Assembly: GCA_030142905.1 (NCBI GenBank)
Contig: JASJOG010000153.1
Span: 190,001 to 254,000 of the forward strand
Direction: 5' to 3'
DNA length: 64,000 nt
Source: Heliopora coerulea
Taxonomy: Eukaryota; Cnidaria; Anthozoa; Scleralcyonacea; Helioporidae
Both the position numbers and the translations under genes were made by a program. The first letter of the stretch is position 1, and each line of letters starts with the position of its first letter. Shown piece by piece: positions 17,037-35,811 of the stretch. The notes beneath the pieces are model-generated. The model saw only the letters and a list, made by a program, of their open reading frames with translations, had not been told where the DNA came from and searched no databases.

Positions 17037-17755
17037 TACAACAACAAAAGAATTTATTCGCACCCATTACAATTACATACAAAGATTAGACTATTATGTT
17101 GTTGAATAGCGAGGGTGCACCAGGTACTCAAAATAATCAAGCAGCCACGTATTTAAATTTAGTCCAGTTACAGAATGTATAAACACTGACAACAAGTAAT
17201 AGCATACGAACATCAAACAAAAAAAGAATACATAAACCATTACAATTACAATCATGTTAGATGTTAGTATTTTGTAATATAATCAAATGTCAATCTTCTT
17301 TTAAATTGTATAAATGAAAGAATTCTAACTTCTTTATAAAGGGATTTCCATAGTTTGTCCTCACTCTAAGAAGGAAATAAGTCAGCCTAGATGTACATCT
17401 TGTGTTGTAACTATGTAATTCACAGACAGCAATAAAGAATGCATTGAAAGTAGAAGGCAAGAGGTGATTGTAAAATTTGTACATGAGAATAACAAGATAG
17501 AATAATGATATTCAAATTTTGAAAAAGTAATAATAAGCAAAGTTTTAAAGTAGAAGGGTACACATTGCCCCAAACAATTATTCCATAATTGAAAATGGAT
17601 AAACTAATGCATAATAGAGATTGACAATCTTTAAGCCACCATAATGCCAAAGTTTAAAGAACATTCCTATGGTTCTTTTTATCTTTTTTGTGAAGTAATT
17701 TATTCGACTTTTCCAGTTAAGGTTAGAATCTATCATCCGACCAAGATATAAAATA
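17037..17755 (-). pseudogene. Non-LTR retrotransposon RT C-terminal fragment 2 with 3' UTR
   Basis: Minus-strand text YLGRMIDSNLNWKSRI (about 17745-17695), then KLWHYGGLKIVNLYYALVYP and YGIIVWGNVYP, then a C-terminal LHSYNTRCTSRL and LRVRTNYGN near 17400-17340. It is the tail of an APE-type non-LTR RT in shifting frames, followed by a 3' UTR to about 17037. The junction with the PLE 3' end at about 17725-17755 marks where the PLE joined it. Confidence 0.75.
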
Positions 17756-17825
17756 AAACATATTCTGAAAAATATAGACATCTTGAAAAACTCAAGATAT
17801 GGGTCAAAACAAGATGAGTATGTGA

Positions 17826-17880
17826 GACTGTAATATTTCGACTTTATTAGAAAGTCATCACCAGACAGAATGATTTACAA
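17826..17880 (-). ncRNA. Hammerhead-like motif at the 3' end of the host PLE
   Basis: On the minus strand CTGGTGA, a GACTTT/AAAGTC hairpin, then GAAA, bracketed by CTGT and ACAG. It aligns base for base with the motif at 8330-8385, but the first core element has G for A at one position, so it is probably a decayed ribozyme. An identical plus-strand copy is at about 34355-34405, inside the inverted duplication. Confidence 0.45.
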
Positions 17881-18433
17881 AACAAGCCAAGGTCTATATA
17901 TACGGTGTGATGTGGATAATGGAAGTTGGGAATCCTATACCTGAGATATTAACACGACAAAACCCATTGCTAATTACTAATTAACTCAAGAGGAAGCTAT
18001 TTACAAGGCAAAAGTTATTAACAACAACTGACCCGACAATACTGACGTGTAAGATGACTGAGACAGGTGAGTATCAGATGCCATAATGTTGACAAACTGA
18101 TAGAATAATCATCAGCCATTGAGTTGGAGTGAGAAAGAGGTATAAAGTAGGAGGTCGGAAATATATATGAGTGCAAGGCTGCCTAGATGAAAAGTGTGAG
18201 TTCTTTTCAAGCTCCGGAGTTGGTTTCAGGCTTGTTAAATTAACAAGAGTTTATTAGTGTGAGTAGATTTACTCAAGTAAAGAATTTTATAGTGATTAAA
18301 GATTAAATTTTTGATAGATGAGTTCAAAAAGGAGGGGAGGTTATTAAGTCGATTGTATTGACCCTGTAAGTTGACAAGAAACTGTGGGTGTTCACATTCA
18401 GTGAGGTGTCGTGCCATTGCACTGGTATTAAGT

Positions 18434-18439
18434 TGAGTA
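18434..18439. repeat. Left target-site duplication TGAGTA of the Polinton
   Basis: TGAGTA precedes the terminal AGTAGTGG and recurs as TGAGTA at 34663-34668 directly after the right terminus. Six base pairs is the canonical duplication length for Polintons/Mavericks, and both copies interrupt the same PLE codons. Confidence 0.93.
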
Positions 18440-18759
18440 AGTAGTGGTAAAACGACAGTTCTGGCTCATCTTCAAAAAAAACACTCAAAATTTTTCTAAG
18501 TGTCGATTTTACACTACTGCGCATGCGCGAGAAATTTTTCCAAGTGACGTGTTTCTTATCCTCATTAGTCTAAAATTAAACCATCTAGGTCAAACATTCA
18601 AAGTGTCGTGTTTCTTATCTTCATTGGATTAAAATTGATCTAAAATGAACAAACTCCCAAGTGTCGATTTTAACCTACCCCTTTTCCCAAAACATGACAG
18701 AAGAAAAAAAAAAGTTGTCAAATTTTGTATTGAGAGACACACACACAATACAAAATTTT
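18440..18759. repeat. Polinton left terminal inverted repeat
   Basis: 320 bp, matched in reverse complement by 33469-33787 with about a dozen differences. Inside are four spaced copies of an AAGTG(T/A)CG(A/T)-led motif at 18498, 18542, 18601 and 18659, a TGCGCATGCGCG palindromic core at 18518-18529, and an (AC)n-rich inner end. Confidence 0.93.
18518..18529. promoter_or_regulatory. NRF-1-like palindromic site in the TIR
   Basis: TGCGCATGCGCG fits the known consensus of the animal transcription factor NRF-1 exactly. It is one of very few CpG-rich spots in AT-rich DNA. The copy at 34573-34584 is also perfect; the one in the inner right TIR (33701-33712) has one change. Role as a promoter element is inference. 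Confidence 0.45.
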
Positions 18760-18760
18760 A

Positions 18761-19219
18761 TTATTCTTCTTTCTCATTTCCACGATATTTCTTTTTTACA
18801 ACATGTTTTCCAACAGTGACACCTGCAGATAATAATCCAAGATAGGGAAGAAAAGGAGTCACTTTTTCAACCAAGTTTTTTACATCCCTTCTTAATAATT
18901 TATCTTTTGTCAAATCCTTCTCTAATTCATCACTGCTTTTAATAGCTTCCAACCCACCTAAAAGATCTGCAAATTTGCTGATAAGTAAATCTGTGAGAAA
19001 TGCATTTGCTTTCTCCGCTTGCTGTCTCTCATATTCCGCATAGACTTTTAAAACTTGTTTCCCGGAAGATTTTTTCAATTGTGCGACAGATTGCATAATT
19101 TCTCCATCTTCTGATAACAATAACAATTCATTTCTTTTTCTTGCAATTTCTTCTTCTGCGGACGCATTATCAGAATTGTTTGGGGTTGTTGGAATTTCTT
19201 CACTGTCATCTTTACTCAT
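18761..19219 (-). CDS. Small Polinton protein with hydrophobic C-terminal segment
   Basis: 152 residues, intact. The N-terminus is acidic and Ser/Asn/Thr-rich, the middle is helical and charged with possible coiled coil (about residues 25-85), and the C-terminus has FLPYLGLLSAGVTVG, a candidate membrane-associated helix, followed by a basic tail. I do not recognise the family; its position next to the ATPase and capsid genes suggests a virion or assembly role, which is inference. The start ATG sits in AATAAATG and overlaps the stop of the ATPase gene by 8 bases (ATGAGTAA), so the two could be cotranscribed. The stop lies right at the inner edge of the left TIR, within AATAATAAA, which can serve as a poly(A) signal. 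Confidence 0.75.
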   Translation of the reverse strand: MSKDDSEEIPTTPNNSDNASAEEEIARKRNELLLLSEDGEIMQSVAQLKKSSGKQVLKVYAEYERQQAEKANAFLTDLLISKFADLLGGLEAIKSSDELEKDLTKDKLLRRDVKNLVEKVTPFLPYLGLLSAGVTVGKHVVKKKYRGNEKEE

Positions 19220-19922
19220 TTATTAAATGTGTAAAAGGAAAAATTAAGTTGATCTCCAAGTTGGAATATCTCTTCTCTTTCAGCATCTTGAGAATTTCCT
19301 TTTCCTCTTCTTTTGAAATATTTCCAAGATATTCTTCCATAATGGTTTTCATATCTTTTTTATTCGGATTATAGAATGTAACCAATTTACTTATATTTTC
19401 TCTAAATGGTTTTGTAATAGTCGTCAACTGTTGTGTAATGACAACAACAGAAAGATTGAAATGTCTTGCAGAAAATCCCAACTTTACCAGCTCACTGGTT
19501 CTACTCTTGACACATTTTCCACTCGCACAGTCATCTAAAATAACTAAACTTTTACTTCCTTTTGCATAGTTGACAATAAATTTTAGCCATTTTTCTACTT
19601 CATCTTGTTTGCAAGGAATAGCATAAAAATCCTTGTCGTAATAATATTTCCAATTTTCCCAAGTTGTATTCCATTCAAAAGTAGGACAAATGAGAAAAAT
19701 AGATTCAAAACATCCAAAATATTCTTTTTCTAAAAAATCTAAAAGAAATTTTGTTTTTCCGCAAGCAGTCATTCCAACTATAATCATATTGAATGGTTTA
19801 CAATTGTTTTTCTGACATGAATTTTTATTTTTTTTATTCTCTTTTGCTTTACGAGAAATATTTTGTAACTCCAATTTTTCAACTTTCGGTATTATTTCTT
19901 TTATTGTAGTTATTTTCTCCAT
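19212..19922 (-). CDS. Packaging ATPase (A32/FtsK-HerA superfamily)
   Basis: 236 residues, open from end to end. A basic N-terminal segment is followed by the Walker A loop GMTACGKT (residues 50-57), ICPTFEWN (about 78-85), the Walker B strand SLVILDD (about 125-131) and the sensor strand VVVITQQ (about 159-165) followed by KPFRENIS with a candidate arginine finger. These features and the length match the genome-packaging ATPases of Polintons and related dsDNA viruses, which pump DNA into capsids. It lies between the small hydrophobic-tailed protein and the capsid gene, as is common in the group. The start ATG is in AAATAAATG, 6 bases from the capsid frame's end. No break is visible, so this is one of the best-preserved genes here. 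Confidence 0.92.
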   Translation of the reverse strand: MEKITTIKEIIPKVEKLELQNISRKAKENKKNKNSCQKNNCKPFNMIIVGMTACGKTKFLLDFLEKEYFGCFESIFLICPTFEWNTTWENWKYYYDKDFYAIPCKQDEVEKWLKFIVNYAKGSKSLVILDDCASGKCVKSRTSELVKLGFSARHFNLSVVVITQQLTTITKPFRENISKLVTFYNPNKKDMKTIMEEYLGNISKEEEKEILKMLKEKRYSNLEINLIFPFTHLINE

Positions 19923-19927
19923 TTATT

Positions 19928-21412
19928 TTAGAATTGTATTGAAGATAAATCTTTATTCACAATATTCAGTAATCCATCAGATAACACAAATATATGACAT
20001 TTTACATTTGCAGTAATTACAGTTTTCTTAATTTCTAATAATATTCCAGATTGTGTGTTTACTAATTTTTTACCATCTCCATAGACAAAATCGTCATTTA
20101 TGGTTCTCAAATCAATACATAATGCGAAAGCATTTTTGTAAAACTTTTCTAAACTCATAACAGATTCACAACTTTCATATCCACAGTGAAATATTCTAAA
20201 TGCTTCTTCGAAAAATCTACTTTTTGGAATACCTTGTGAATAGATAGAATTTGGAACCCCTTTGACACTAATTTTAATTTCTGTAATATTTGGATACACA
20301 AACTCCTCAGAATCTGTTAAAGTTTTATTTTTAAACAACAACACAATTAATAACAAAACATGTTAGTTTAGACAAGCTTTACTGACGTTTCGTTGCTAAT
20401 GCACAACATTTTCAAAGTAACATAGATGATGGATAAGGTAAGGTTATAATCATCTATGTTACTTTGAAAATGTTGCACGTTAGCAACGAAACGTCAGTAA
20501 AGCTTGTCTAAACTAACATGTTTTGTTATTTATCGTGTTTTATCCTGTTATGGCTATTCACATTCGAATTTTGAGCTGGGCATTAATATTCATCCTACGA
20601 CTACGATTCCTGCCTGGTAAATCCTTGGTCAATATTTTAATAACACAATTGCTTTCATACTTTTTCTTGGGATGTTAATCGTTTCATTATGCAATGTATG
20701 ATCTTTATTCCATTCCACAGTTTTCATTAAAGTGACATGATTAAATGACAACGATCTTCCTTGTGAATAATGTGACAAGACTTCCTCTGCCAAATCCAGG
20801 TTTTCAATAGTTTCATATTCCAATTCCAGATTTTCTAGAGAATATCCACCAACACTTTCTCCACTTTGGGCGACCATAATTTCACTTGCTTTTGGTAAAG
20901 TGATGATATATTGGAAATTGTTAATCATTCCATAAGGAGAATACAATCCATGAGTAGAAAGAATTTTTTCCAATTTCAAACACTGTTTTGTTCCAAAAAT
21001 ATCAAACATGCGTTCATCAGATTCTTTTTGTGTATTTCCACTTGTTGCTCCAGAGTCATCTTTTGAGATGAATTTTCTAACATTTTCATTTCCAATACCA
21101 TATTTAATCATATCAGATCTTTCATGTGGTGGTTTCCAAAGATCATTGTAAACTTCCAAAATAGATTCTCCTGTATTTTCATAAACAATTTCACCGGAAA
21201 ATTTAACAACTAATCTTTCTTTCAAAAGTTTTGACAAATTGTTTAAAAACCAAGATTTTGCATTTTTGTTTTTGAAATTAAATAACAATCTAAGAGAGTC
21301 TGGAACAAGACACAAATTTGGATTCAATTTTGGAGTATCAATGTAACAACATGTCTCACCCTGTTTCCTTTGATCTTTTATATCCAGGATACAATACAGT
21401 CACTCTACTCAT
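19928..21412 (-). pseudogene. Major capsid protein (double jelly roll), broken by frameshift and insertion
   Basis: Two coding blocks: 21412-20642 (N-terminal) and 20348-19928 (C-terminal), separated by a 293-bp palindromic insertion. The N-terminal block has NPNLCLVPDSLRLLFNF, ERLVVKFSGE, VYENTGESILEVY, KFISKDDS and HGLYSPYGM. The C-terminal block has FVYPNITEIKISVKG, NAFALCIDLR and a final KCHIFVLSDGLL strand. These match the cnidarian/nematode proteins annotated as F54H12.2-like, known as Polinton major capsid proteins. The ATG at 21412 (TATATAAATAAATG) is followed after about 18 codons by a frameshift near 21370. The insertion duplicates AACACAATT and truncates the frame, so no full capsid protein can be made from this copy. 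Confidence 0.9.
20349..20641. mobile_element. Palindromic (foldback) insertion inside the capsid gene
   Basis: 293 bp flanked by the 9-bp duplication AACACAATT (20340-20348 and 20642-20650). The arms 20351-20430 and 20449-20528 are near-perfect inverted repeats of about 80 bp with an 18-bp loop. Each arm contains TTGAAAATGTTGC, GCAACGAAACGTCAG text, a degenerate version of the hammerhead-type CUGAAGA...CGAAAC layout of PLE ends. A 110-bp unique tail lies on the side of 20530-20641. It looks like a PLE-derived foldback rather than a classical MITE. Confidence 0.75.
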
Positions 21413-21441: not shown

Positions 21442-22773
21442 TTATTTCTTTCTTCTTTCTTTGTATTCATTGCATAAAAAGTAAGTAATTGCAAGTGTTA
21501 GAATCCACAAGTTTTTTGCAAGAAAAGTTATTCCTTTTGCACCCCATGCTAATATAGATCCAATTAAATTCAACAGAGAAGAAATGACAACACCAAAATT
21601 TTTACCAATATTTGCAAATGATTTTCCTAAATTTCCAACTGCTTTTGCACCTGATTTCAAAGCTTTTCTTGCTCCTATTATAATTGTTGTTAATATTCCT
21701 GCAACCGAAATTGCAACTGCTGATAGACCTAAAAGATTCTCTTTTGCCCGTCTCTTAAATCTTTCTAATCTTCCCAAATCACTATTGTCTACTTCTTCAT
21801 TTAAAATTTGTATTCCCTCTCTACTCTCTGGTCTCATATTATTTTCTAATCGCATTTTATCAGCTTGAAGTTTTGCAATATCTGCAAAAGATTTATAAAT
21901 TTCTTTTTGTGGTTCAAATGTTTCATCCATATATTTTTCCATCCAGTGCTGATATTCTTTTTCAAAACCATCTATTTTTCCTTGAATAATTTTTCTTTTT
22001 TCTTCTTCATCCACATCACCATCCACAATATAAATCAAACCACTAAATTCTCTCAACTCTTCTCTATTAAATAAGGATCTTCTAGGATCTTGTTTGTCAT
22101 CTATAAACTTTTTCAAATTATTTTACTTTGAATATTTACAAGAGAATCGTCAATAATGGTTGTATAAAATGAGTCATCTGTTTCTATTTCTTCTCTTATA
22201 ATTCTTGTTATACCCGGATCTCCTTTTTCTCCTTGAAATCGTCGTAATCCTCTTTCACCTTTTTCACCTTGTAAACCTTGTAAACCTCTTTCTCCTTTTT
22301 CACCTCTATCTCCTTTATCTCCTAGTATAATTCTTTCTTGAATTGCTGCTTTTGGAGTATTGTCAAATTCTTTTACATTTCTTCTTCTTTTATCCATCTG
22401 TAAAAGTTCCAACTTCTTCTCCTCTATATCTAATAATAGTGGTTTTTCCTTCTCCAGAAAATGTAGTGTTTTCAATCAAGTATTTTGATGAGAATCCATT
22501 TTTCTTTGCAATATCAATCTTAAATATTTCTTTAAAATCTCTTTTTGTATCTACTGTTATTTGTCTTTTCATATTTCCAGCAGTTTTTTTCATATTTTTT
22601 AACGTATCAACTCTTTCAACACTTTTCATTGGTTTAGGAGACAAAGGATCTTCTCTTGCATCTACAAAACTAGTTTCATCTTCCCCTTCTTCTTCTTCTT
22701 CTTCTTCATAATCCTCATCTCTATATCTATCTTTATCTCTCATTTCAAAGTCATCAAATCCTCCTTCTGCCAT
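21442..22773 (-). pseudogene. Structural-type protein with acidic N-terminus, collagen-like tract and hydrophobic C-terminus
   Basis: Three overlapping open segments that look like one gene with two compensating frameshifts. Segment 1 (22773-22390) starts at an ATG in TATATAAATAAATG, is acidic (a run of Glu) and contains SGEGKTTIIRY. Segment 2 (22475-22113), in another frame and without its own upstream ATG, holds about 14 Gly-X-Y triplets (GDKGDRGEKGERG and similar). Segment 3 (22116-21442) returns to the frame of segment 1, again with no near ATG; it is charged and helical, then rich in Gly/Ala/Leu/Ile with two or three membrane-like helices (SAVAISVAGILTTIIIGA, LLNLIGSILAWG, NLWILTLAITYFLC). 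Collagen-like tracts occur in viral fibres, and a surface or membrane role is inference. It lies between integrase and capsid genes. Confidence 0.65.
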
Positions 22774-23745
22774 TTATTTATATATTTTTTTTTTCCAACA
22801 AAAGATAATTCATTCTCATAAAATTTCCCAAGAATTTCTTCTCCTTCTAAATCTTCTATTTTATACACAGTGGGATCACCAAAAAACACTTGTATGATTT
22901 TAAAAATTTCTTTTGTAAAATTTGCTTCATATCCTTTTGCAAAAATGTTTTTATATCTAGAAATCCTAACAAGATCTCCAATTTTGTAGTTTGGAGAAGG
23001 AATGTCACCAACGGGTGCTCCAAAAAGTCTCATCCAAACTTGATCCTTATTTGTCTCATTTACATCTGAAGGTTTCAATCCAATTGTTCTATGCGTAGTG
23101 TGATTATAATTATAAACAAGGTCATCTAAGATATCCAGCCATTTGTTAGTATCTTTTGCATTAAAATATTTCCACATGCTTGTTTTCAGCGTCTTATTAA
23201 ATCTTTCTACAATTGCTGCTTTCCTCTCAGAATAAGTTGTAAAATATTCTACACCATTGTTTTTCAAGATTGTTTTAACACCAACATTGTGAAATTCTTT
23301 TCCGTCATCAAATTGAGTAAATTTTGGATATTTTCCAAATCTTGTTTTAAATTCTTCCATCAATTCCTCTACTGCTTTTGTCATATTTTTTGTATCTTTT
23401 CTGTAAACAGGAATAGCAAACACAAATCTTGATAAAATTTCAACCGCTGTTAGAATCCAATAACCTTTGTTTTTATTTTTATATTTTTTCATATCAACCA
23501 AGTCCATTTGCAATTGATCACCCAAATTTCTGACAAATGTTTTTCTAAATTTGTTTTCTAACAATGGGTTTAAACATGGTAAAAGTATCTTGTGTTGTTA
23601 ACCATTCTCTCACAAATTTTCTACTGACATTTATTCCTTCTTCTCTAGCTTTTTGGTAAAGTTTTTCCGCAGATTGAAAACCTGTTTCTGGATTGTAATA
23701 CAAATCTCTCAACTCTTGTTCAATCACAAATTCTTCATCTTTCAT
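22740..23745 (-). pseudogene. Polinton integrase (retroviral rve type), one frameshift
   Basis: N-terminal segment 23745-23545 has LRDLYYNPETGFQSAEKLY and VSRKFVREWL, the helical DNA-binding start typical of Polinton integrases. After one frameshift near 23550 the frame 23564-22740 has the catalytic core: first Asp in QMDLVDMKKY, second in FTQFDDGKEFHN, and Glu in AAIVERFNKTLK, followed by YNHTTHRTIGLKPSDV and a C-terminal chromodomain-like region (YKIGDLVRISRYK, VYKIEDLEGEEI). This is the enzyme that joins the linear element ends to the target and makes the 6-bp duplication. The 3' end overlaps the next gene's start by about 34 bases. The first segment's ATG is inside the palindrome shared with the divergent gene. 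Confidence 0.92.
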
Positions 23746-25853: not shown

Positions 25854-27932
25854 ATGAGTCTCTTCTACGGATATAAAAAAGACACAGTTGAAACAATAGG
25901 TGGTCTTCCCACCACAGGAGGAGAAATGACAGGAAACATTAACATGAATGATAATCATATTTTGACATCTGCTGATCCAACACAAAATTCACATCTTACA
26001 AGGAAAAAAGATGTAGATGATTTGGTGTCGGGTCATACAAGTTTGAATTATCTACCAAAAACTGGTGGAGTTATGACTGGAAATATTGACATGGGAAATA
26101 ACAAAATTTCAACAAATGTGAATCCTACAAGTGATAAAGATTTAGCTAGAAAAAAATACGTAGACGATCAAGACTCTAAAAAATTATCAGTAACTGGTGG
26201 TGTTATGTCTGGAAATATTGACATTGGAAATCATAAAATTCTGACAACTTCAGATCCTACGGGAGAAAAACATTTAGCAAGGAAAAAATATGTAGACACA
26301 CAAGATGCTAAAAAATTATCTTTATCAGGAGGAAGTATGACAGGAAATATTGATATGGGAAATAATAAAATTTTATCCTCTACAGATCCCACAGATGAAA
26401 AACATTTAACAAGAAAAAAATATGTGGATAATAACTTTTTAATTGTCGATAAAACCAAGCTACATTAGGGGAATGAAATGGATGAATTAAAAGGAAATAT
26501 TATGACAAAAAATTTTCAAATTTTTACTATAAAGACTCCAAACAATGGTTATTCTCTAACAAATAAACTTTATGTGGATTATAAAGTTAATAAAAAGTTG
26601 TCAAAATCAGGCGGATCAATGACAGGAAGTATAACACTTGGAAATAATAGAATTTTAACAACTGCAGATCCAACAGCTGATACAGATTTAGCAAGAAAAA
26701 AATATGTGGATGACGAAGACAATAAAAAAGTTACAAAAAGTGGTGATAGTATGACAAGAGATTTGAATATGGGAAATAACAAAATCAACACCACTTCAGA
26801 TCCAACAAATGATACACACCTAGCAAGGAAAAAGTACGTGGATTACCGAGATAGTCTCAAATTATCTTTATCTGGTGGAACAATGACTGGTGATATCGTA
26901 ATTGGAAATCATAAAATCCTATCCTCCACAGATCCCACAGGTGCTAAAGATTTAGCAAGAAAAAAATATGTAGATACTCAAGACAATAAAAAAGTTTCAA
27001 AAAGTGGAGATAGTATGACAGGAGATTTGAATATGGGAAATTTTCATATTATTCATGCAGCAAATTATTCTCCTTCTTCTGATCAACATGTGAATAGAAA
27101 ATGTGTGACAAATTTAACGTTCCCAAATACTCTTTCAAATTTATACCTTTTACAAATGAATGACAAAGGAATTTTTGATGTGAAAGATGATGTTAATTAT
27201 ATAGAATATACTGGAAGCAATAAAAAGGTTGAAAAACTTTTGAATTTGTCAAGAAAAGAAGATTGGAATTTCAAACAAGATGATACAAACAAACAACCAT
27301 TTTTCAAAAAATCCACAATTAATAATAATTTTTATTGTCTCCAATATCTTGGATCAAATAGTAACAATTTACATTTAGTTAATGCAGTAGATATTTTAAG
27401 CAATGAATACTTGAATTTTTATTTTGTATATGGTTTAAAGTCATTAAATTCAACAAACAATGAGGTATCGCTATTTAAAATTACAGATAATGCAACAACA
27501 AGTCAACCAACTCCTTTTGATTTTGGTATTTCTTATCATAATTCATTATTATATATAACAAACTCATCTCAAAATGCAGTTCCAAATTCCAATTGGGAAT
27601 TGAAAGCAAATGCAACAGAAATCAACAAGTTGATACGTCTTTCTTCACACTGGGATCAAAATAACACCAGTGGAGTTAAGAAGGGAAAATTATATGCCAA
27701 TGGAAAAGAAATTGTTTCTTTCACAACAACTCAAAAATTATCTCACAATGTGAATATGAAACTATATCTTGGATCAAAAAATAAAGACCATGGAAAATTT
27801 GATGGAGAAATATTATATGTATATGTTTCAACAAGAAAAATTAAAGAAAAAGAAATTGTGTTAAACCATTATCTTCTTTGTAAAAAATATAATGTTGATT
27901 TTGATGAAGAGGAAGTTATAAAATATATTTGA
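25854..27932 (+). pseudogene. Fibre protein: phage-tail-fibre-like repeats plus lectin-like C-terminus (one in-frame stop)
   Basis: One continuous reading frame of 692 codons with a single TAG at 26466-26468. From about residue 20 to 415 there are nine repeats of about 44 residues with the pattern GGxMTGNIDMGNNKI...DPT...LARKKYVD...KKLSxS; repeat 5 is degenerate and follows the stop. The pattern is the one known from tailed-phage tail fibres. The C-terminal 260 residues have beta-rich text (LNFYFVYGLKSLN, KGKLYANGKEIVSF, NMKLYLGSKNKDHGKFDGEILYVYVSTR) like the concanavalin A/LamG fold used in glycan binding. Receptor binding is inference. The gene follows the penton gene by 6 bases with a weak start (AATAAAGAAAGATG). 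Confidence 0.8.
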
Positions 27933-29589: not shown

Positions 29590-32500
29590 ATGGGAGTAGA
29601 AAAACTCATTTCAAAAAAGGGTGCAAAAAAAACATCCAAAAGAATTTATTTGAAATCTGGAAACTATACAAAAGAAGAAATATTGAAAAGGAAAATGGAA
29701 GGATTACTGACCAAAGCCGAAAAACTGCACAAAGAACTTGGAACAAATTGGCGTCAAACACTCAAGAAGTTGAAAGAATCCACCAGAGAGGTAAGTAGAG
29801 AAGAAGAGAAGAAAACTTCAACTGGGAAAAGAGCATATACCAGGTCTGGAAAATACACAAAATATGCAATGTTAAAAAGGAAAGAATTTCGGAAAAATTC
29901 AGAAAAATCACCACAGAAGCAGAAACACATTTAAAAGAGGAAAAAGGTTGGTATAATAATCTTAAAAACTCCATAATGAGCTTATTTTCAAATAAAAGAA
30001 TAAAATTTAAGTTGGAAAAATCTGCACTAAATGCTGTTACAAAAAAATATGTAATAGATTTGGAAAAAGAGGGTTTGTCTTTATATAGCCCCTTGAGTTT
30101 ATTAGAAGAAGTAAAACCGATTGTGCTTGAAAAGTTTAAAAAATTTCCCATGACAAAGCAACAGCTGACATTAATGTGTTTGATGAAAAAAGAAAATCCC
30201 GCAAATGGAGAAGTAATAATTGACCATTCTCATTTTCATAGTCACCAACAGCAAATTTTAAAAGAAAATAATCCTGATGAAATTTATAAAAAAAATGCAA
30301 GATAAAATTATTAAAAGTTTTGAAGAATATTTAGATAAAGGGAGTCAATGGCAATTTGAAAAAGGTTTAAAACTATTCCTTAATATTAACAAAATTAGAC
30401 CTTTGAATGCATCTTCTTGGGTTCCACTTCCAAAATTTTTGAAAGATAAAAAAGCAATTATCAACCCAAAAAAATGAAGATCAAAAATGTTTCTTGTGGT
30501 GTGTTGGAATACATGAATTATTGGAAAAAAATATAGAAAGAATTACAGAAAGTTTGAAAAAGAAAACAGAAAAATTCAATTCAAATGGAATGAATTTCCC
30601 ATGTGGAATTTCAGATATAGAAAAGTTTGAAAAAAATAATAATATCCCTATTAATGTATTTGGCTATAGTGAAAAAGAAATTTTTCCTTTGAGAATAAGT
30701 GAGAATTTTTCAGGTAAGCATGTAAACATTTTGCTGATAGAAAATGGTGGAAACAAACATTATTGCTTTATAAAAAATATGAGCCAATTATTTTCAAGTC
30801 AAGTAAATAAACACAATGGAAAAATATACATTTGTAATTATTGCTTGCAGCATTTCAACAAAGAAGAAATTCTTAAAGATCATTTAGAATATTGTAGGAA
30901 ATTCAAGTGTGGAAAAACTGTTTTTCCGAAAAAAGGAGAAATATTAAAGTTTAAAAATTATCAAAAAATGCATGACGTGCCCTTTATTATTTTCGCGGAT
31001 TTTGAATGCTATTTAAAGCCTATAAATAAAATTGGTAATCATACAAAACAGTTTCAAAAGCATGAACCATCTGGATATTGTTATTTAATCAAATGTTTTG
31101 ATGACAACATTTACAAACCTAAATTAGTACTATGTACAAAAAAATCAGAAGACGAAGACATAAGTTTGAGATTTATAAAAAGTTTAGAAAAGGAAATTAG
31201 AGAAATACATGAAAAATTTAGATTTCCAAAAATAATTGAGATGAAAGATGAGGATAAAAAAGATTTTGAAAATGCAAAGAATTGTTATACTTGCAGAGTC
31301 AAATTTAATAAAAAATTGCAAAAAGTTAAAGACCATTGCCACTTTTCTGGAAAATATAGAGGCACCGCATGTAATGAGTGTAATATAAAAATGAAAAAAC
31401 CTAAATTCATTCCAGCCGTTCTTCACAACTTAAAATTATGACAGTCATCTATTTATTAAAAATCTTGGAGTGACAGAAGGAGAAATAAATTGTATAACAA
31501 AAACAGAAGAGAAATATATTTCTTTCTCAAAAAAATTATTGTAGGTGAATTTTTTAGTGAAAAAACTTTTGAATATGTCCAAGTCAAAAGAGAATTAAGA
31601 TTTATAGATAGTTTTAGTTTCTTAGCAAAAAGTTTAGAAAATTTAACTAAAAATGTAGGAAAAGATGATTTTAACAATTTGAATTTATTTTTTGAAGATG
31701 AAGGAGAGAGAGAATTATTAAAAAGAAAAGGAGTTTTTCCATATGACTGGTTTAACTCCTTAGAAAAATTGGAAGAAGAAAATATTCCACCAAAAAAAGA
31801 ATTTTATTCAATGTTAAATGAAGAAAATATAAATGAAGCAGATTATGAGCATACTCAAAATATTTGGAATTCCTTCCAAATGAAGAGCATGAGAGAATAT
31901 CACAATCTGTATTTGAAAACAGATGTGATTCTTTTGGCAAATGTTTTCGAAGATTTTCGAAAAATATGCAAAAAACATTATGGATTGGATCCAGCTTGGT
32001 ATTACACTTCACCAGGTTTAGCATGGGATGCCATGCTAAAACTGACTGGAGTCGAGCTGGAGCTTTTGCATGACCCTCAAATGTACCTCTTGATTGAAAA
32101 TGGAATCAGAGGTGGAATTTCGACTATTACAAAGAGACATGCAAAAGCAAATAATCCATACGTGAAAAATTATAATCCTGAAGAAGAAATAAAATATATA
32201 CCATATTTAGATGCAAACAATTTATATGGATGGGCAATGTCAAAACCTCTCCCTGTGAGAAATTTTGAATGGATGAATGCAGGTGAATTGGAGAATTGGA
32301 AAAATATTCTTTGTATTTTGGAAGTAGATTTAGAATATCCAGAAGAATTGCATGATTTGCATAATGTATACCCGTTGGCACCAGAGATTAAAAGTTGGTA
32401 ATATTGAGAAATTAATACCAAACTTGAGAGATAAAGAAAAATATATTTTACATTATGAAAACTTGAAATTATATGAAAAATTAGGATTAAAAATTACAAA

Positions 32501-33395
32501 AATTCATAAAGGTGTGAAATTTTATGAAGAAGATTTTATGAAAAAATATATAGAATTGAATACAAAATTGAGAACAACATCAAAAAATCAGTCTGAAAGT
32601 GAATTTTTTAAATTGATGAATAATTCTGTGTTTGGCAAGACAATGGAAAATGTTAGGAACAGAGTTGATATACAGCTTTGTAACAGAGAAGAAAAAGCTG
32701 TTAAATTATTTTCAAATATTAGTTTTGACAAAGCAACAATTTTCTCTGAAAATTTTATTGCTTTGCATATGTTTAAGAAGAAAGTTATACTCAATAAACC
32801 CATTTACTTGGGAATGAGTATTTTAGATTTATCCAAAACCCTTATGTATGACTTTCATTATAAATATATTAAAAAGAAATATGGGGAAAAAGTAGAATTG
32901 CTTTTCACCGATACAGATTCATTAATGTATGAAATCAAAACAAATGATTTCTATAAAGACATATCTGAAGATATAGAAAAAATGTTTGATACAAGTAATT
33001 ATGGAAAAAATAAAAAGGTAATTGGAATGATGAAAGATGAGTGTGGCGGGAAAATAATAGAATTTGTAGGTCTTAGATCAAAATTATATTCCTACAAAAA
33101 GGAAGAGAGTGAGGAGAAGAGGTGTAAAGGAATTAAAAAGAATGTTATTAAAAAAGAAATATTTTTTCAAGATTATAAAAATTGTTTATTTAGTGGAAAG
33201 GAAGAAACAAGAAAAATGAATTTAATATTGCATCGAAAACATGACTTGTTTTCTGGGACTATTGAAAAAATAGCATTGTCACCAAATGATGACAAAAGAA
33301 TTGTCATGGGGAATAAGATTAATACAATGTCATATGGGCATTATATGACTGATATGATAATAACTTATGAGAATATACTCGGATTTAAACCATGA
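29590..33395 (+). pseudogene. Protein-primed family B DNA polymerase, several frameshifts
   Basis: About 1260 codons across several open segments (29590-29934, 29900s-30305, 30277-30477, 30480s-31441, 31437-31540, 31530-32401, 32390-33395). In order: a duplicated basic N-terminal module (KRIYLKSGNYTKEEILKRK and KRAYTRSGKYTKYAMLKRK); a CNYC...H..C zinc-finger-like cluster (30835-30895); exonuclease motif FADFEC (about 31000); an HNH-like C...DHCH...CNEC cluster (31290-31380); polymerase motif A DANNLYG (32210), motif B KLMNNSVFGK (32610) and motif C FTDTDS (32905). The C-terminus is intact to 33395. It would replicate the linear element from protein-primed ends. At least five frame changes, mostly in A-rich runs, break it. 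Confidence 0.93.
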
Positions 33396-33468: not shown

Positions 33469-33787
33469 AAAATTTTGTATTGTGTGTGTGTGTCTCAATA
33501 CAAAATTTGACAACTTTTTTTTTTTTCTTCTGTCATGTTTTGGGAAAAGGGGTAGGTTAAAATCGACACTTGGGAGTTTGTTCATTTTAGATCAATTTTA
33601 ATCCAATGAAGATAAGAAACATGACACTTTGAATGTTTGACCTAGATGGTTTAATTTTAGACTAATGAGGATAAAAAACACGACACTTGGAAAAATTTCT
33701 CGCACATGCGCAGTAGTGTAAAATCGACACTTAGAAAAATTTTGAGTGTTTTTTTTGATGAGCCAGAACTGTCGTTTTACCACTACT
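33469..33787. repeat. Polinton inner right terminal inverted repeat
   Basis: Reverse complement of 18440-18759 with a few substitutions and small gaps. It ends ...CCACTACT at 33787 and is followed by TACTCA, the inverse of the left target duplication. It is therefore not the true end of the insertion, because the true right duplication is TGAGTA at 34663. Confidence 0.92.
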
Positions 33788-34502
33788 TACTCAACTTAAT
33801 ACCAGTGCAATGGCACGACACCTTACTGAATGTGAACACCCACAGTTTCTTGCCAACTTACAGGGTCAATACAATCGACTTAATAACCTCCCCTCCTTTT
33901 TGAACTCATCTATCAAAAATTTAATCTTTAATCACTATAAAATTCTTTACTTGAGTAAATCTACTCACACTAATAAACTCTTGTTAATTTAACAAGCCTG
34001 AAACCAACTCCGGAGCTTGAAAAGGACTCACACTTTTCAACTAGGCAGCCTTGCACTCATATATATTTCCGACCTCCTACTTTATACCTCTTTCTCACTC
34101 CAACTCAATGGCTGATGATTATTCTATCAGTTTGTCAACATTATGGCATCTGATACTCACCTGTCTCAGTCATCTTACACGTCAGTATTGTCGGGTCAGT
34201 TGTTGTTAATAACTTTTGCCTTGTAAATAGCTTCCTCTTGAGTTAATTAGTAATTAGCAATGGGTTTTGTCGTGTTAATATCTCAGGTATAGGATTCCCA
34301 ACTTCCATTGTCCACATCACACCGTATATATAGACCTTGGCTTGTTTTGTAAATCATTCTGTCTGGTGATGACTTTCTAATAAAGTCGAAATATTACAGT
34401 CTTACATACTCATCTTGTTTTGACCCATATCTTGAGTTTTTCAAGATGTCTATATTTTTCAGAATATGTTTTATTTTATATCTTGGTTGGATGATAGATT
34501 CT
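33788..34502 (+). repeat. Inverted copy of the left flanking DNA (PLE 3' end)
   Basis: Reverse complement of 17725-18439 at very high identity. It contains the same PLE text (MARHLTECEHPQF at 33810 onwards), the same hammerhead-like motif and the first 25-30 bases of the adjacent non-LTR RT (ending AGATTCT at 34502). It lies inside the Polinton as defined by its target duplications, so left-flank DNA was copied into the right end. Confidence 0.92.
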
Positions 34503-34662
34503 GAATGTTTGACCTAGATGGTTTAATTTTAGACTAATGAGGATAAGAAATACGACACTTGGAAAAATTTCTCGCGCATGCGCAGTAGTGTAAAATCGAC
34601 ACTTAGAAAAATTTTGAGTGTTTTTTTTGAAGATGAGCCAGAACTGTCGTTTTACCACTACT
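34503..34662. repeat. Truncated outer right TIR of the Polinton
   Basis: 160 bp matching the outer half of the left TIR (18440-18598 in reverse complement), including a perfect CGCGCATGCGCA core at 34573-34584. It ends CCACTACT and is followed by TGAGTA (34663-34668). This is the original right end of the insertion, cut internally where the inverted flank copy was joined. Confidence 0.92.
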
Positions 34663-34668
34663 TGAGTA

Positions 34669-34810
34669 GAGTGTTTTGTCAAACATTTATAAATGCATCT
34701 ATTGGTTTTGCTGATATAAGTTTCCATGCATCCTGGACAAGTAACTTCATAAACGACATTACTATGAGACAACTCCAGAATGTTGTCCTTGTTGAAACAG
34801 AAATAAGAAA
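34669..34810 (-). pseudogene. Host PLE GIY-YIG endonuclease, N-terminal half
   Basis: Read leftward from 34798: NVVYEVTCPGCMETYISKTNRC and then CLTKHSTQ, the GIY-YIG core (here YEV...YIS, with Ser for the usual Gly) with a CPGC pair. The frame then runs into the Polinton terminus at 34662. The C-terminal half of the same domain is at 18433-18235. Confidence 0.8.
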
Positions 34811-34840
34811 GAGACTTCAAGCAAACGACAAATTTCTTTA

Positions 34841-34883
34841 TTGTATACATGTTTCGGCAAAACTCATGCCATCTTCAGTACAA
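34841..34883 (-). ncRNA. Hammerhead-like ribozyme motif (left arm of foldback)
   Basis: Minus strand: TTGTA, CTGAAGA, a GGC...GCC hairpin, GAAA, CATG, TA, TACAA. TTGTA/TACAA form stem I, CTGAAGA and GAAA fit the conserved core, CATG is a minimal self-complementary stem III and TA fits the cleavage-site position. This is the best hammerhead candidate in the window. Its inverted twin is at 35698-35740 (+). Confidence 0.6.
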
Positions 34884-35697
34884 ATGGTAATAGGATATTT
34901 ACAAGCGATATTTATGTGACCTGATAAATATTACAAGCGTATGACTCATCTAATATGAATTCTCACACATGTGTCAGAAAGATTAATTACAAGGGTGCGA
35001 CTGGTTAATGGAGGAAGTGGGCGTTGAAGGCGATGTGTAGAAAGTTGATGACGTGTGGTAGACAGAAACAGGAAGAAGAAAAAAAATAAAATAAAATAAA
35101 ATAAAATAAAAAAAAAAAAGATTAAAAATTATATGTGTATATTGGAATTATAAGCTAAACATGGTGTTAAGATGATGGACTTGAACATTAAGTTCGGGTT
35201 TGAGTTTCTTAATATGTAGCGCTTCTTTGAGTTTAAGAGAAAGGACAGATTTATCGGAGTCTATGATTTTAAAGCATGAGGAGTTATACTGAAGTTTGCA
35301 AGCAGAGGTTTGCATTTAGACTCCGATAAATCTGTCCTTTCTCTTAAACTCAAAGAAGCGCTACATATTAAGAAACTCAAACCCGAACTTAATGTTCAAG
35401 TCCATCATCTTAACACCATGTTTAGCTTATAATTCCAATATACACATATAATTTTTAATCTTTTTTTTTTTTTTATTTTATTTTATTTTATTTTTTTTCT
35501 TCTTCCTAACTGTTTCTGTCTACCACACATCATCAACTTTCTACACATCGCCTTCAACGCCCACTTCCTCCATTAACCAGTCGCATCCTTGTAATTAATC
35601 TTTCTGACACATGTGTGAGAATTCATATTAGATGAGTCATACGCTTGTAATATTTATCAGGTCACATAAATATCGCTTGTAAATATCCTATTACCAT

Positions 35698-35740
35698 TTG
35701 TACTGAAGATGGCATGAGTTTTGCCGAAACATGTATACAA
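35698..35740 (+). ncRNA. Hammerhead-like ribozyme motif (right arm of foldback)
   Basis: Exact inverted copy of 34841-34883, with the same stem I, CTGAAGA and GAAA core and CATG mini-stem. Transcription through both arms would give a long hairpin that could hide both cores. Confidence 0.6.
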
Positions 35741-35811
35741 TAAAGAAATTTGTCGTTTACTTGAAGTCTCTATTAGCACTTGTGCTTCTACGATCTTATA
35801 GAAATAAGAAA

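Follow-up and report, generated by a model that had tools for sequence, protein, structure and literature searches.

To our knowledge, it is not settled whether animal Polintons produce infectious virions. We analyzed a stretch of 64,000 nucleotides of the Heliopora coerulea genome (contig JASJOG010000153.1, positions 190,001 to 254,000 of the forward strand; hereafter the window), in which an earlier note, made from the letters alone, had described a phage-style fibre gene directly after the penton gene of a Polinton. This locus raises two questions: what the gene encodes, and what its history in the genome tells about the element. Our results support the earlier interpretation. The gene likely encodes the receptor-binding virion fibre of an animal Polinton (adintovirus-like), as an exchangeable cassette that has been switched many times.

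A decayed Polinton with a fibre gene in two pieces

The gene lies in an element bounded by terminal inverted repeats of about 1 kb (98–99% identity). We assigned this element to the Polinton/Maverick (adintovirus-like) group from these repeats and from its packaging ATPase, integrase, penton and type B DNA polymerase (Table 1). The polymerase frames are broken, and DNA_pol_B_2 is matched in the middle ORF only (31490–32401; Pfam, 2.2e-14). With these frames and a stop in its fibre gene, the window copy is decayed. No target-site duplication was recognised beside the assumed element ends, and a scan of 20 ORFs gave no convincing Pfam protease match for a cysteine protease. Two minus-strand ORFs that lack a Pfam match (19928–20356 and 20629–21327) may be pieces of the major capsid gene. 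Between them, at 20340–20539, are two inverted 91-bp arms separated by 18 bp. The same element has a collagen-like ORF (22113–22475, minus strand; Pfam Collagen 7.2e-7), possibly a second fibrous surface protein, and nested inverted repeats occupy 34810–35771, just beyond its right end.

Table 1. Features of the element and of its fibre gene (positions in the window)
Feature	Position	Strand	Evidence or remark
Left terminal inverted repeat region	17725..18759	.	arms 17725–18478, 18469–18713 and 18704–18759 pair with 33469–34502, 98–99%
A32-type packaging ATPase	19212..19922	-	Pfam Pox_A32 8.8e-17
Retroviral-type integrase	22740..23564	-	Pfam rve 1.4e-9
Penton (minor capsid) gene, 221 aa	25182..25847	+	identified by fold
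Fibre gene, first piece, 204 aa: anchor MSLFYGYKKD and four repeats, ends at in-frame stop	25854..26468	+	PHROG tail fibre 5.1e-16
Anchor peptide at the N-terminus (ANC1), proposed to bind the penton	25854..25883	+	motif in 33/34 loci; putative role
Shaft repeats 1–4	25899..26441	+	
Mid-shaft segment mid1, of a kind seen in single-fibre copies only; spans the stop	26430..26579	+	tblastn with a relative's segment, 84%
In-frame stop splitting the fibre gene in the window copy	26466..26468	+	
Fibre gene, second piece, 484 aa: one degenerate repeat, four repeats, head	26478..27932	+	PHROG tail fibre 1.7e-22
Shaft repeats 6–9, the last one like a second-fibre repeat	26592..27119	+	
Head A, predicted concanavalin A / LamG_3-like lectin fold	27129..27929	+	
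Type B DNA polymerase region	30494..33395	+	broken into three ORFs that adjoin or overlap
Right terminal inverted repeat region	33469..34663	.	pairs with the left arms

The earlier note was partly confirmed here. The repeat array and head are found at 25854..27932, as it had placed them, but not as a single open gene, since an in-frame stop divides the window copy into two ORFs. We searched the two pieces separately and modelled the second. The nine repeats of about 44 residues that had been claimed were recovered as eight repeat starts, four per ORF and mostly spaced by 44 residues, plus one degenerate unit (26478–26591). A strict full-repeat pattern was matched three times in each piece and in none of 2000 residue shuffles of either, which rules out chance repeats.

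These repeats do resemble phage tail fibres, as had been proposed. Both pieces match PHROG tail-fibre profiles at multiple repeat positions, and the tandem units of about 44 residues are of the phage shaft type. At the level of single proteins, the best phage matches of the shaft are marine Synechococcus and Roseobacter phages. Among solved structures, a profile of the fibre family weakly matched hyaluronidases and tail fibres of phages (E 1e-4 to 0.02); the second piece by itself, searched by sequence, matched none at E 1. In the monomer model, the pLDDT of the shaft is mostly below 50.

A lectin-like head

The head, earlier described as beta-rich, was modelled with fair confidence (mean pLDDT 66–94 per ten-residue block, counted in the second piece from residue 231 on), and according to this model head A is a concanavalin A-like fold. 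The LamG half of the same claim fell short of the profile threshold: the window head scored 23.5 bits with LamG_3 and a relative (P0001) 25.8 bits, against a curated Pfam cut-off of 27.6. Among the folds listed as similar to the head is also the lectin-like portion of the binding domains of clostridial toxins; a shared fold is uninformative on function.

All 19 matches of a head-only search fall in the fibre family, which, as far as this search reaches, excludes a host protein as the nearest relative of the head. The head alone gave no match at E 1 against phage records. Searching with the whole second piece returned 112 protein matches. Profile comparison, in which some head rows retained a bit of shaft, related five head classes to one another: A matched B, C and D with 99.0–99.5% probability and E with 97.6%. 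Five fibre-repeat proteins on contigs of 0.3–2 Mb (P0045, P0054, P0057, P0061 and P0081) have other N-termini and heads and probably are the fibres that Polintons carry in other hosts. Two of them have a collagen-like start, and the head of P0045 is profile-related to head B.

The fibre follows the penton in sibling loci

We searched the genome (430 Mb in 769 contigs) and found at least 150 penton matches, the best 150 of 924 candidates having been scored. Counted by eye, 133 of these 150 have no internal stop, a large Polinton load for 430 Mb. That the host is an animal shows in the genome itself, which gave 37 matches to Wnt exons against none in any of 14 control genomes. We then inspected 34 distinct penton loci: the window, the 20 next closest, seven with a short flank and six others (seven of the 34 belong to three near-copy groups, with pentons more than 99% identical). 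The gene upstream of the fibre is a penton by its fold, and a repeat fibre is the next gene in all 34 loci. The fibre thus lies directly after the penton, as stated earlier, and is present in related Polintons, a point that the earlier note had set as a check.

In 33 of the 34 loci, the fibre starts with the motif MS[LFM][FYN]YG[YF], 0–22 nt past the penton stop, and residues S2, Y5 and G6 are invariant in all 33; the search pattern limits the letters allowed, and locus L041 gave no match. By analogy with the adenovirus fibre tail, this motif is plausibly a penton anchor. The fibre after the penton is uninterrupted in 12 of the 34 loci under a loose test (frame from the anchor to near the head end). 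In the protein database, 13 contig sizes are common to 38 of the 112 fibre matches and 54 penton matches, against a mean of 0.08 after jitter, which suggests that fibre and penton lie on the same contig. Scans of viral contigs with an intact fibre relative and with the penton alignment found no relative.

Two fibre layouts

The sibling loci fall into two layouts. A single fibre is present in 15 of the 34, with head A in 13, head D in one and another type in one (L053). The remaining 19 have a tandem layout with head B on the first fibre, followed in 18 of them by a second gene that begins otherwise (MSVVF, MSVIF or similar); the L026 locus ends too early. The second-fibre head, reached in 13 tandem loci, is A in 12 and D in one. 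Unlike the window, some copies have two or three fibre genes, bearing other heads. The third gene, seen in L033, L035, L038 and L049, is small, lies between the two fibres and combines the second anchor with a head of about 115 residues of another type (ending ...SYLTAT).

The same contrast was found genome-wide, where we scored the best 138 of 974 candidates for head A and the best 140 of 1132 for head B. Among these scored matches, a listed head-B match lies 0.5–2.5 kb upstream of 63 of the 100 short-frame head-A genes and of none of the 38 long-frame ones (Fisher p 3e-13, copies treated as independent). The line between short and long, 450 residues, was our choice, and long fibres may be counted as short because of a stop, as happened with L031, a single-fibre copy. 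A listed penton is found upstream of 60 of the 140 head-B and 46 of the 138 head-A matches scored, and none stands on the wrong side of any of them, in agreement with the gene order penton, B, A. All these fractions are lower bounds because the lists contain the best candidates only (150 of 924 for the penton), and an absent partner in them therefore proves nothing.

Repeated switching and a mosaic fibre block

The penton tree requires at least nine layout changes, seven of them forced by well-supported branches, and layout is barely more clustered on it than by chance (9 changes against a shuffle mean of 11.4; 51 of 500 shuffles as low). The head-A tree needs seven changes, four of them forced, and a tree built from the initial 320 bases of the fibre needs eight, again with four forced. 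Grouping the single-fibre copies in one clade was rejected by the penton data (AU p 2.7e-7) and by the head-A data (7e-36), which rules out a single origin of the one-fibre state. The head clade that unites the window with L031, L051, L052 and L054 was rejected by the penton data (p 0.003); the penton clades tested were not rejected by the head data (p 0.10 and 0.14), and the signal of head transfer between lineages is one-sided.

We compared the fibre block with its flanks in 37 pairs (penton identity at least 88%, both flanks available). Aligned-column identity is 80.5% in the fibre block, 92.2% in the penton and 92.5% in the downstream gene, and the fibre block is below both flanks in 35 of the 37 pairs. 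The 20 pairs of the same layout show 82.7%, 93.1% and 92.7%, respectively. When gaps are counted, the fibre block falls to 67.7% against 90.6% for the penton and 86.1% for the downstream gene. A non-coding stretch and a small ORF inside the block may account for part of its low identity. The head and the penton are under purifying selection, with a median dN/dS of 0.35 for head A and 0.23 for the penton (15 open head-A loci minus one without an open penton; pairs with dS outside 0.02–1.5 dropped).

The repeats are mosaic as well. The pentons of the window and L031 are 96% alike while their mid-shaft segments differ. Compared with the tandem locus L034, the first three repeats of the window match first-fibre repeats (79–83%), and its last repeat is 80% identical to a second-fibre repeat against 62% for the best first-fibre repeat. 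L037 has two repeats that match the first fibre and three that match the second, with one of these three nearly tied; in L052, the first repeat matches the first fibre and the last repeat the second. L056 and L044, two of the five single-fibre copies compared with a tandem relative, have no repeat whose best match is in the second fibre.

Lineages have passed repeatedly from one state to the other, probably via homologous recombination within the repeats. For the route of switching, and for this alone, there is a rival account to which we give even chances: the layouts would be old alleles shuffled among elements by recombination, and not the products of repeated in-place fusions of a tandem set. 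A mid segment at 70% or more was found in 14 of the 15 single-fibre loci and in none of the 19 tandem loci. This favors old alleles and weakens the proposal that single fibres all arose anew by fusion of a tandem set in place; exchange between elements, not just fusion in place, was therefore probably involved. However, the single-fibre locus L037 contains the first repeat of a second fibre (91%) and groups with the tandem loci L033 and L035 in the head-A tree (97/99) and in the anchor tree (100/100), and both the penton tree and the anchor tree pair L056 (single) with L055 (tandem) as sisters. Fusion in place and shuffling of alleles may both act.

A probable receptor-binding fibre

According to the reading that we favor, the short N-terminal tail (MSLFYGYK...) would dock in the penton of the five-fold vertex, a trimeric shaft of the phage tail-fibre type would be built from the 44-residue repeats, and the C-terminal concanavalin A-like head would bind a glycan of the target cell. 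The cassette exists in two forms, a single long fibre on anchor 1 with head A, D or another, and a tandem arrangement in which anchor 1 bears head B and is followed by anchor 2 bearing head A or D. Head exchange among copies is the pattern expected of a host-range module, and the differing heads suggest that the element spreads, or until recently spread, as real virus particles. It is in this sense that we infer the real virions and the host-range module proposed in the earlier note.

The target could also be bacteria instead of animal cells, the phage-type fibre serving for hitch-hiking as proposed in the available text on the virophage DSLV2 (PMC12724248). We consider this improbable. That model is published and the best phage matches of the shaft are marine Synechococcus and Roseobacter phages, but the sets searched contain no phage sequence related to the head, the part that would select the target, and the elements are integrated in an animal genome. 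Still less credible is another secreted or intracellular element protein whose repeats merely resemble phage shafts, for although the monomer model of the shaft has low confidence, the multi-position match to PHROG tail-fibre families, the lectin-type head, the constant place after the penton and the relatives in protist Polinton-like viruses, with fibre roles published in the available part of PMC12220804, all argue against it.

With the virion fibre retained as the favored reading, its place next to the penton, the purifying selection and a fibre block more mosaic and divergent than the flanking genes provide evidence on the virion question. We also propose, with a little less than even confidence, a broader view. 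Animal Polintons would carry a switchable vertex cassette, with several fibres or one, common anchors, phage-type repeats and interchangeable lectin heads, that is reshuffled within the genome; they would travel as infectious virions and be selected for receptor change. Such a cassette would be the signature of infectious, receptor-changing elements, and the integrated animal Polintons would therefore be proviruses of a living virus group. In any case, the loci provide anchors, shafts and heads in a natural series that can be studied.

Comparison with known systems

Among the openly accessible papers listed by our searches, which are no proof of absence in print, we found neither a fibre of this kind in an animal Polinton nor a layout switch. 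The words "fiber" and "fibre" are absent from the main text of PMC11071308, PMC10120064 and PMC9952930, and fibre genes are mentioned only in passing in the available part of PMC11071296. The animal form of the phage-like LamG fibre and its switching thus look new.

The shaft repeats resemble those of the tail fibres of marine tailed phages (Synechococcus phage S-B28, Roseobacter CRP-1 and CRP-235; about 39–46% identity, best E 4e-19). The head of the Polinton fibre has no sequence match there, and phage fibres sit on the tail whereas the proposed seat of the Polinton fibre is the capsid vertex. The switching described above would be an animal-host parallel to the exchange of tail-fibre modules in phages.

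The penton–fibre complex of adenoviruses follows a plan of N-terminal tail, shaft and knob, and avian types have two fibres. The Polinton gene shares this plan, would likewise work with a penton, and occurs as one or two fibre genes. However, we found no sequence relation of shaft or knob, and the anchor motif is analogous at most. Two fibres per penton in adenovirus are also described in the available part of PMC12220804.

Phage-related tripartite tail proteins are reported for the virophage DSLV2 in the available text of PMC12724248; there too, a small DNA virus of eukaryotes bears a fibre related to those of phages. Those tails have a gp37-tip fold, are made of three consecutive proteins and have bacterial LPS as proposed target, whereas the present fibre combines a repeat shaft with a predicted concanavalin A-like head.

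A further parallel is offered by the protist Polinton-like viruses, whose phage-like fibres, as described in the available part of PMC12220804, also have phage-type repeats and LamG_3 heads and are proposed to attach to the penton. These fibres, from cryptophytes and other protists, are often large and modular and end in a Peptidase_S74 chaperone. In contrast, neither piece of the present fibre has a Pfam match to Peptidase_S74, its host is an animal, and it exists in tandem and single states.
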